Positions 852 to 11,753 of a stretch of 11,753 bases of DNA are shown piece by piece. The stretch comes from a bacterium (GTDB lineage Bacteria > CG2-30-53-67 > CG2-30-70-394), in contig JAJRSX010000044.1 in NCBI GenBank assembly GCA_024278555.1, forward strand, positions 1 through 11,753, in the 5' to 3' direction. The notes below the pieces were generated by a model. The model ran no database searches. It was not told the DNA's origin and saw nothing but the letters and a program-made list of their open reading frames with translations. A program made the position numbers and the translations under genes. How positions within the stretch are numbered: position 1 is the first letter of the stretch; each line of letters starts with the position of its first letter.

Positions 852-994
852 AGGGGGTATGTCTCCCGGGCGGGCAAGCCGATAAGGTGAAGTTCAATGG
901 TGCGGGCGCAAAACCCGGCTGGCTCGCAGGGCCGCTAGTTTGACCCCTCTCCCCCTGCGTGATACAGACCGCCCGCCCTGCAGAGACCTTGAGT

Positions 995-1870
995 ATGTCC
1001 CGTCTAGAATTCCGCCTTCAGGTCCACCGAGGGGATGGTGCGGTGCACGTCGCCCACCTCCCCCGGCCCCTCCTCATCGCCCTCGCCGCCCTGCTCCCCG
1101 CCTGCGTCGTGTTGACGGTGGCGACGATCGCGCTCGTCGGCCACAGCCGCCAGGTGAGCGCGGAGCTGGCGGCCCTGGAGGAGGGGTACCAGGGGTCCCG
1201 TTACCTCTACGACCGACTCAACGACGAGCTCGCCCAGGTGCGGCGTCTCAACGACCGGCTGCGGGTCGTCGCCGACAACCGTCCGCCGTCGATCAACGGC
1301 CAGTTCTTCGGCCTTGGCGGCCTCTCCCCCTCCCCCTCTGTGGACGCCGCTCCGCTGAGCCGTCGCCTCCACGACCTTGCGCGGGCCACCGATGCGGCGG
1401 CAGGGGAGATCGAACGGCAGGGAGCGGGCTTCGTGGAGCTCACCCGGCTGCTGGAGGGGCGCCAGGCAGAGATGGCGACCCTCCCCTCCATTCGCCCGGC
1501 GCGCGGCTGGATCGCCTCCCCCTTCGGCCGCCGCCTCGACCCGTACAACCACCGGTGGAAGATGCATGAGGGCATCGACATCGCCGGCCGTTTCGGTACC
1601 CCGGTGGTCGCCAGCGCCGACGGCGAGGTGGCGAAGGTGGCGAGAGATCGTGGCGGCTACGGCCAGTTTGTCCTCCTCGACCACGGTGACACGGTGGAGA
1701 CCCTCTACGGCCACCTGGCGCAGGTGATCGTCGAGCCGGGCGACGTGGTCCGGCGCGGCGACGTCATTGCCTACATGGGCTCCACCGGCCGCTCCACCGG
1801 CCCCCACGTCCACTACGAGGTGCGGGTCGCCGGGGTCCACCGCAACCCGGTGGACTACATGCACGAGTAG
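995..1870 (+). CDS. Membrane-anchored M23 family metallopeptidase (peptidoglycan endopeptidase-like)
   Basis: A 291-residue zinc peptidase, predicted to cleave peptidoglycan cross-links in the periplasm. A short cytoplasmic N-terminus is followed by one hydrophobic segment (about residues 26-48), a Glu/Arg/Leu-rich stretch likely to be coiled coil (about 50-95), and a C-terminal LytM/M23 domain (about 165-290). The domain has SPFGRRLDP, the first zinc ligands His191 and Asp195 in MHEGIDIA, and the HxH motif His271-Val-His273 in GPHVHYEV, so it looks catalytically intact. I chose the ATG at 995. A GTG at 959 would add 12 residues that do not look like family sequence. Ribosome-site signal is weak at both. 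secA starts 79 bases downstream; an M23 gene next to secA is a known gammaproteobacterial arrangement. Co-transcription is plausible but unproven. Confidence 0.9.
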
Positions 1871-1949
1871 CCCCCCTCTGCCGCGCGGCCCGTCTCCGGG
1901 GCCCCGTGTGGTAGAGTGCCGCACTTTCGCGGTTGCACCCTGCGAGCCT

Positions 1950-4730
<2,781 letters not shown>

Positions 4731-4913: not shown

Positions 4914-5729
4914 ATGGTCACCGTCGCCGCCATCCAGACCGCCGCCACCCTTGATGTGGGGCACAACATCGCCCACCTCGCCGAACTCACCGCGGTGGCG
5001 GCGGAGCGTGGCGCCGCCCTCGTCTGTCTGCCGCAGCTCTGCTGCACCCCGTGGTTTCCGGCCGCCGGAACGCCCGTGCCGATCGACGACCACCGGTCGC
5101 TCCTCGACCCCCTGGCCGAGGTCGCCGCCACCCGGTCGATCCACCTGATCGCCCCGCTCCCCGAGCGTGACGGTGACCGGTGGTACAACACCGCCTTCCT
5201 CCTTGCCCCGGATGGCTCCATCGCCGGACGCCACCGCAAGACACAGCTCCCGGAGATCGACGGCTACCGGGAACGAAGCTGCTTCACCGCCGGCGACGGG
5301 CCACCGAGCGTGTTCGAGGTGGCGGAGCTCAAGGTCGGGGTGCAGATCTGCTGGGAAAACTACTTCCCCGAGGGGCCACGGCTCCTGGCCCTGGCCGGCG
5401 CCGACCTCATCTTCGCCCCCACCGCCTCCGCCCTCGATTCACGGGACCGGTGGCGTGCGCTCCTCGCCTCCCACGCCCTGTGCAACAACCTCTACCTCCT
5501 GCGTCTCAACCGCATGGGCGACGAGGGGGATCTCCACTTCTACGGCCGCTCCTTCGTCGCCGACCCCCTCGGCGAAGTATTTGCCGAGGCCGGCGAGGGC
5601 GAGGCGATCCTCATGGCGGAGATCGACCCGGCCCGGGTGGCCGAGGCACGCGAGCGCACCCACTTCCTCGACGACCGGCGGCCGGAGAGCTACGGCGGCC
5701 TCACCGTCGTCCCCGCGGCCGACCGGTAG
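4914..5729 (+). CDS. Nitrilase-superfamily (carbon-nitrogen hydrolase) protein, N-carbamoylputrescine amidase-like, catalytic Glu replaced by Gln
   Basis: A 271-residue single-domain member of the nitrilase superfamily, whose enzymes cleave amide or nitrile C-N bonds with a Glu-Lys-Cys triad. The closest resemblance I recognise is to N-carbamoylputrescine amidase (polyamine synthesis), from GYRERSCF after the Lys, CWENYFPEGPR around the Cys, and FYGRSFVADPLGEV and DDRRPESYGGL near the end. Lys109 (GRHRKTQLPE) and Cys146 (VQICWEN) are present. Where the family has the catalytic Glu (QELF..PYF), this protein has Gln41 in CLPQLCCTPWF, codon CAG at 5034-5036. The fold looks intact, with no frameshift or truncation. 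It may be a non-catalytic or altered homologue, or the base may be a sequencing error. The start ATG has only a weak ribosome site. No polyamine genes are adjacent, so the substrate is unknown. Confidence 0.88.
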   Translation: MVTVAAIQTAATLDVGHNIAHLAELTAVAAERGAALVCLPQLCCTPWFPAAGTPVPIDDHRSLLDPLAEVAATRSIHLIAPLPERDGDRWYNTAFLLAPDGSIAGRHRKTQLPEIDGYRERSCFTAGDGPPSVFEVAELKVGVQICWENYFPEGPRLLALAGADLIFAPTASALDSRDRWRALLASHALCNNLYLLRLNRMGDEGDLHFYGRSFVADPLGEVFAEAGEGEAILMAEIDPARVAEARERTHFLDDRRPESYGGLTVVPAADR

Positions 5730-5754: not shown

Positions 5755-5848
5755 TGGGGTCAGGCTTGCAAACTTGCAAGTTTGGACCTCGCTGTTGGCC
5801 ACCAACGGGCAAACTCGCAAGTTTGCAAAGGTTGCAAGCCTGACCCCA
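5755..5848. repeat. ~94-bp palindromic intergenic repeat (REP/MITE-like)
   Basis: The outer arms TGGGGTCAGGCTTGCAA (5755-5771) and TTGCAAGCCTGACCCCA (5832-5848) are a perfect 17-bp inverted repeat. Each arm also holds a self-complementary 16-mer: CAAACTTGCAAGTTTG (5769-5784, perfect) and CAAACTCGCAAGTTTG (5810-5825, one mismatch). The centre has a small GTTGG-CCA-CCAAC hairpin (5794-5806). The A/T-rich arms stand out against the GC-rich genes. It lies between the nitrilase-like gene and maeB, touching the maeB ATG. GGGGTCAGG-type arms recall repeats mobilised by REP-associated (Y1) transposases, but no such transposase is in the window. Confidence 0.85.
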
Positions 5849-11465: not shown

Positions 11466-11494
11466 AACGTAAGGCGACCCTCGCTACCCGTCAA
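11466..11494 (-). promoter_or_regulatory. Candidate promoter of the antitoxin remnant (and yggS run)
   Basis: Reading the minus strand, TTGACG (11494-11489) is followed after exactly 17 bases by TACGTT (11471-11466). The -35 matches the sigma-70 consensus at 5 of 6 bases, the -10 at 3 of 6. Transcription would begin within a few bases of ATG 11457, giving a leaderless or nearly leaderless message. It is the best promoter-like site I see upstream of yggS-pilZ-cupin. Confidence 0.4.
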
Positions 11495-11564
11495 CCACGC
11501 GCTGCGCTGCCATCACCGTCGGTTCCCTCTATCCTCCGAACAACATTCCCTCCACCGGAAACGG

Positions 11565-11587
11565 AAAAGGGTCCTGTCCCCTTTTTT
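11565..11587. repeat. GGGGACAGGACCC-type hairpin motif with flanking A/T runs
   Basis: AAAAGGG (11565-11571) and CCCTTTT (11579-11585) form a 7-bp stem around TCCTGTC and end in a run of six T. On the plus strand it resembles a weak intrinsic terminator. On the minus strand it reads AAAAAAGGGGACAGGACCC. From memory, that string belongs to a class of short dispersed elements common in environmental proteobacterial genomes. It lies between the antitoxin remnant and the transposase fragment. Confidence 0.5.
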
Positions 11588-11613
11588 ACCCGGGCCAAAG
11601 TCCGACAGACTCC

Positions 11614-11753
11614 TAGCGCCGGTACGACTTCCTGCTTGTCGTTGGGGTGCTGCGTGACATGCTGCTCAACGATGAGCTGCGTCTCCATGTCCACCGCCGC
11701 TTGGGCGTTGTACGCCTGCTCGAATCCGCCGCTGGACGTCGGCATGATCCGCG
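11614..11753 (-). pseudogene. Transposase fragment (IS1182/DDE type), runs off the window edge
   Basis: From the right edge the minus strand reads RIMPTSSGGFEQAYNAQAAVD, given in parts as RIMPTSSGG and FEQAYNAQAAVD, then LIVEQHVTQHPNDKQEVVPAL. This is a well-known internal block of IS1182-like transposases and includes the catalytic Asp of the 'AVD' strand. The frame is open at the edge, so the N-terminal part lies outside the window. Family similarity stops near 11614. The frame then runs on to a stop at 11491 through unrelated sequence containing the hairpin motif above. The C-terminal catalytic part is absent, so this copy cannot work. Bases 11588-11612 (GTCTGTCGGACTTTGG on the minus strand) might be an insertion-sequence end. 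Confidence 0.8.

Follow-up and report, generated by a model that had tools for sequence, protein, structure and literature searches.

Members of the nitrilase superfamily hydrolyse or condense C-N bonds through a cysteine thioester, and the catalytic glutamate of nitrilases serves as the general base. The nearest curated relative of the protein described here is N-carbamoylputrescine amidase (AguB/CPA; model TIGR03381). In the enzyme MtCPA (PDB 5h8i-5h8l), both glutamates contribute to abstraction of the thiol proton, Glu187 orients the substrate, and Gln161 and Trp162 hold the catalytic water, while the C158S mutant still binds putrescine (PMC4812014). The Lnt mutants E267A and C387A are inactive, the former despite a fourth catalytic residue, E343 (PMC5500890). 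In Nit1, a Cys-to-Ala form retains tumour-suppressor activity (PMC9913352). The PDB titles of the engineered E41Q amidase of Nesterenkonia sp. AN1 (4izu, 4izt) indicate that its cysteine still reacts with acrylamide and fluoroacetamide, and other titles that Cys-to-Ala amidase mutants hold butyramide, nicotinamide or glutaramide.

The window, which is the whole stretch of 11,753 nucleotides that was analysed, contains a nitrilase-like gene with a CN-hydrolase fold (positions 4914-5729, forward strand; 271 amino acids), recognised from the translated reading frame, Pfam, an AlphaFold model and a PDB match. The CN_hydrolase domain (PF00795) covers residues 3-246 of the protein with E = 8e-54. 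The triad positions are occupied by Q41, K109 and C146. An ungapped motif alignment places Gln41 of the motif CLPQLCCTPWF (codon CAG, 5034-5036, forward strand) on the catalytic Glu48 of MtCPA, while Lys109 (5238-5240, forward strand; MtCPA Lys121) and the nucleophile Cys146 (5349-5351, forward strand; MtCPA Cys158) lie in the intact motifs RHRKTQLP and GVQICWENYFPEG. The alignment thus agrees with the original prediction, which had read the catalytic Glu as replaced by Gln41 and the motifs around Lys109 and Cys146 as intact. The protein has the fold and domain of the nitrilase superfamily and lacks an intact Glu-Lys-Cys triad. It also has the conserved second glutamate, Glu120 (5271-5273, forward strand), which corresponds to MtCPA Glu132 and whose role is known from that enzyme (PMC4812014).

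The AlphaFold model, built from a 29-row alignment, has a mean pLDDT of 89 and a pTM of 0.89. It matches MtCPA (5h8j_I) with a Z of about 35.6-35.7 and an rmsd of 2.1 Å over 271 residues, 6mg6_B with a Z of 36.5, and the Nesterenkonia amidase mutants E41Q, C145A and C145S, several of whose PDB entries contain bound or trapped ligands, with a Z of about 33.4. The window protein resembles AguB/CPA in its fold, its lysine and cysteine motifs and its second glutamate, at 32-33% identity. In contrast to MtCPA, it has Gln instead of the catalytic Glu, the segment of the substrate-orienting Glu187 is deleted, and the water-holding Gln161/Trp162 are replaced by Asn149/Tyr150 (Asn/Phe in most subfamily members). 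Because these specificity features of AguB are absent, N-carbamoylputrescine is not expected to be the ligand, judging from the aligned residues.

The window protein belongs to an uncurated, unnamed subfamily that is sister to AguB. A profile of the class proteins (A2), searched in 386 genomes, finds subfamily matches in 29 of them at 312-465 bits; below a score gap, AguB-like proteins start at 292 bits and lower. Searches of four larger phylum-level groups bring the set to 112 distinct sequences, and two additional group searches gave no new subfamily members. Most of the genomes are metagenome assemblies. Subfamily and AguB-type sequences form separate clades with 100/99 support. NCBIfam holds no model for the subfamily itself, and all 29 members tested against it hit the AguB model (best E-value 1.2e-82). 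The window protein scores 180 bits against TIGR03381, the cut-off of which is 410. AguB membership is rejected on the grounds of this score, the separate clades and the specificity residues. The residues Glu120, Trp47, Trp147, Glu153, Arg156, Pro169, Trp180 and Arg197 are invariant (112/112). Among them, Trp47 in the pocket (5052-5054, forward strand) and Arg197 (5502-5504, forward strand) are diagnostic of the subfamily, each occurring in 2 of the 82 controls. Each genome has one subfamily copy, and a heteromer of an inactive and an intact sister subunit is not supported on that ground. No description of the subfamily, or of natural nitrilase pseudoenzymes of such a kind, was found in the open-access literature. 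Two borderline relatives beyond the profile gap (L206 in G084 and L214 in G187) have Trp47 and the triads E-K-Gly and E-Gly-C; given these, the subfamily may extend past the 112 members counted. In a separate small nitrilase-like group (L022 in G013 and L249 in G350), the position of the triad Lys is occupied by Met (TRMIHIT, TRMVHIT).

Gln41 is fixed in the class of the window, a point on which the original prediction had looked to close homologues. The codon at this position is CAG in all eight class genomes examined, which comprise four genera and two families. The congener, 'Nitrospirae bacterium CG2_30_70_394' (G001; MNYW01000061), has the motif LGQLCCTRWF and 74-75% identity to the window protein, and six class-mates from another family have CFPQLFFLPWF-type motifs, 38-44% identity and likewise CAG. 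Independent Gln origins in the two families, as drawn by a quick tree, are not supported, since holding the eight members together gives a better likelihood than the split. As they can be grouped at no cost, the Gln of the window is assigned to a single change in the ancestor of the class. The stem branch of this clade is long (1.37 in a 118-row tree), and pocket positions that are otherwise kept are altered in it (His111 to Gln, Tyr107 to His). The pocket of the window's own clade may have drifted. Owing to the long stem and the changed positions, the window protein is perhaps not the best choice for ligand discovery, and L047, L048 or L096-type proteins would serve better.

Among the 112 members, 48 have the triad E-K-C, 28 E-K-Ser, 18 E-K-Gly and 16 Q-K-C, with a single E-K-Ala and a single E-Gln-C; the Cys146 position is Ser, Gly or Ala in 47 of them. 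The 82 AguB/Nit-type controls, drawn mostly from the same genome set as the subfamily, consist of 78 E-K-C, two E-M-C, one E-K-G and one E-G-C sequence, and none has Gln. The E-K-G and E-G-C controls also have Trp47, and from this they may be divergent subfamily members. Parsimony on the 118-row tree, for which the triad columns were removed, requires a minimum of 15 changes between broken and intact states, with 6 at the Glu site and 12 at the Cys site, the count being uncertain as the backbone is weakly resolved and the tree has long branches. A single Gln clade is rejected (p-AU 0.0012), as is a single Ser clade (p-AU 0.025). Gln41 is one of the kinds of triad loss that recur in the subfamily, which goes beyond what was first seen in the window. 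Outside the class, eight further members have Gln, encoded by CAG or CAA. In family f13, one group has changed Cys to Gly and its closest relatives retain Cys. In family f270, the sisters L112 and L114 have CAG (Gln) and GAG (Glu), respectively. The catalytic position of f270 alternates among close relatives in general, with GAG in L114 and L121, CAG in L112, and CAA in L118 and L119, and this set is good natural material for a direct Glu/Gln comparison. One Gln member (L050/L081 in G154) has the motif CFEQLF, in which the order of Gln and Glu is swapped and the Glu lies one residue ahead of the catalytic position.

The broken lineages are under purifying selection. Most broken pairs have a dN/dS of 0.06-0.18 and intact pairs 0.04-0.16 (pairwise, Nei-Gojobori), values that are approximate as some pairs are near synonymous saturation. 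The pair formed by the window protein and its congener (G000/G001) has a dN/dS of 0.32-0.36, and its neighbours have 0.31 (M23), 0.36 (HAD) and 0.20 (SecA). Whole clades of 10-14 species retain one broken state, and the broken members have open, full-length frames. No member among the 112 has lost two triad residues. At the rate of the intact lineages, about 5 second losses (Glu and Cys) to 8 (all three sites) would be expected over the broken branches, and the Poisson chance of zero is about 0.006 to 0.0003, a rough estimate from one tree with the class entered as two events. This absence speaks against simple decay. Either the residues left in the triad are needed to shape the pocket or to hold a ligand, or losing another one does harm.

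On the forward strand, the nitrilase-like gene is preceded by secA (1941-4730; Pfam SecA domains), which lies immediately upstream with a gap of 183 bases, and further upstream by an M23 peptidase gene (959-1870, forward strand; Pfam M23, 2.3e-32), a partner of both by synteny. The order M23 peptidase, secA, nitrilase-like gene on one strand is that of the class; in G006 the contig ends in or just past secA and M23 is not visible. The secA gene is directly upstream in all eight class genomes and in other lineages (14 members in all, with the states QKC, EKS, EKG and EKC). Very long frames in G582, G583 and G585, considered as a SecA-nitrilase fusion, are GC-rich read-through and contain no SecA sequence. 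The argS gene lies directly downstream on the same strand in 25 members (QKC, EKC, EKG, EKS and EKA) and overlaps by 4 bases in three Gln members. In 29 members typA is upstream (EKG, EKC and EQC) and in 27 rimI is downstream, all but one of them in one family-level group. A gene for a GGDEF protein lies ahead of the nitrilase-like gene in 12 members. Intact and broken forms occur at the same loci, as expected of orthologues sharing one role. The neighbours (SecA, ArgS and the TypA/RimI/TsaB loci) are mostly housekeeping genes of translation and export, which hints at a functional link, but the linkage may instead reflect conserved gene order and not function.

Directly 3' of the nitrilase-like gene, positions 5756-5847 form a 92-base inverted repeat (GGGGTCAGGCTTGCAA ... 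TTGCAAGCCTGACCCC) that folds much better than shuffles (z -6.2). Its end motif has 58 copies across the genome, most of them paired face to face some tens of bases apart, and the repeat is of a REP/MITE-like family. At the contig end, an ORF fragment (11491-11751, reverse strand) resembles the C-terminal part of a transposase and has no Pfam match.

Several explanations of Gln41 can be weighed against these data. The GAG and CAG codons are one base apart, and the original prediction had allowed for a one-base error of sequencing or assembly. This is excluded with near certainty because the same CAG occurs in all eight class genomes, as does CAG or CAA in the eight Gln members of other lineages. 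The decay of an amidase that is no longer needed, with neutral triad losses and disappearing genes, would fit the repeated losses and the long stem of the window clade. It is in turn very improbable, as broken clades have the same low dN/dS as intact ones, the window pair (about 0.32) is similar to its neighbouring genes, and broken states persist in clades of 10-14 species with full-length frames and no second losses. The selection and exclusivity results largely refute this reading, and the statement of the original prediction that the gene is not decaying holds.

Two further readings keep some chemistry at the site. The protein of the Gln lineages might have altered chemistry, in which Cys, Lys and Glu120 form a thioester or cysteine adduct and the protein acts as an acyl carrier, a transferase or a slow enzyme. 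Cys146, Lys109 and Glu120 are fixed in every Gln member, none of which lacks the Cys, and acrylamide and fluoroacetamide adducts of the engineered E41Q amidase are recorded in PDB titles; the two other triad residues, being retained, could mean residual or changed chemistry. A thioester is however impossible in sister lineages that have Gly, Ala or Ser as nucleophile at the same loci, and around the site the Gln forms have no distinctive new acid or base. Close to position 41 the Gln members have gained no acidic residue of their own; only Asp128 is enriched in them, and it is not known to lie in the active site. Altered chemistry, the main rival reading, is on balance rather unlikely. A hydrolase that is still active, with Glu120 or a group of the ligand replacing Glu41 as general base, is more doubtful again, and each broken lineage would need a different rescue. 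The invariance of Glu120 and the part taken by both glutamates in drawing the thiol proton in MtCPA (PMC4812014) speak for it, but Lnt E267A is inactive although E343 is present (PMC5500890), and the Cys to Gly/Ala lineages are left unexplained.

Within the nitrilase superfamily, the window protein is probably a naturally occurring pseudoenzyme or close to one, and the conserved role of its subfamily would be independent of amide hydrolysis. An essential catalytic residue has been naturally lost and the fold is kept under selection. Among the readings named in the original prediction, that of a binding or regulatory homologue appears the best supported, as the nucleophile itself is lost in sister lineages at the same loci. 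Purifying selection holds the fold, the pocket and the residues Trp47, Glu120, Trp147, Trp180 and Arg197. Single substitutions in the triad would have abolished hydrolysis on many occasions, through Gln in place of Glu in the window, and in other lineages through Ser, Gly or Ala in place of Cys or Gln in place of Lys. The pocket may bind a small amide- or carbamoyl-type ligand without turnover, or the protein body may bind a partner, and the binding would serve the housekeeping process encoded nearby, protein export or translation. The window protein itself would have no useful amide hydrolysis and would act through binding. Its function, as far as comparative data can indicate, is most likely ligand binding or scaffolding. 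The 48 members with E-K-C may be active, with catalysis as a possible ancestral or parallel role. A bolder proposal, put forward tentatively, is that the subfamily, widespread in bacteria, senses a ligand without hydrolysing it, in connection with protein synthesis or export. Hydrolysis would then be dispensable and repeatedly switched off by single ligand-trapping substitutions (Glu to Gln, or Cys to Ser, Gly or Ala) that never combine.

A pseudoenzyme is typically encountered as a lone inactive paralogue of an active enzyme. In this subfamily, single-copy orthologues range from intact to inactive, with each triad position hit separately, the rest of the protein held in place and the same neighbours. 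Since intact and broken orthologues occur in the same setting, they offer a direct test of a nitrilase-fold role that needs no chemistry. The automatic name 'carbon-nitrogen hydrolase' is probably wrong for more than half of the sampled members. The natural Glu-to-Gln and Cys-to-Gly proteins are also a means of trapping a candidate ligand.

The engineered E41Q amidase of Nesterenkonia sp. AN1 has the same substitution at the same position of the same fold, and also keeps Cys and Lys. That protein was made in the laboratory from an active amidase, whereas Gln41 of the window protein is natural and fixed. By analogy, the natural triad losses resemble the mutations introduced in crystallography for trapping ligands. 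As in mammalian Nit1/Fhit, a role of the nitrilase fold can survive the loss of the catalytic Cys (PMC9913352), but wild-type Nit1 keeps its triad, is a deaminated-glutathione amidase of branch 10, outside this subfamily, and has no natural triad loss. The subfamily is similar to other pseudoenzymes, such as degenerate ABC nucleotide-binding sites without the catalytic Glu, in that the fold, and probably binding, are kept and a catalytic residue is replaced. In contrast to these, all three triad positions are hit, repeatedly and singly, in one orthologous subfamily that also has intact members.
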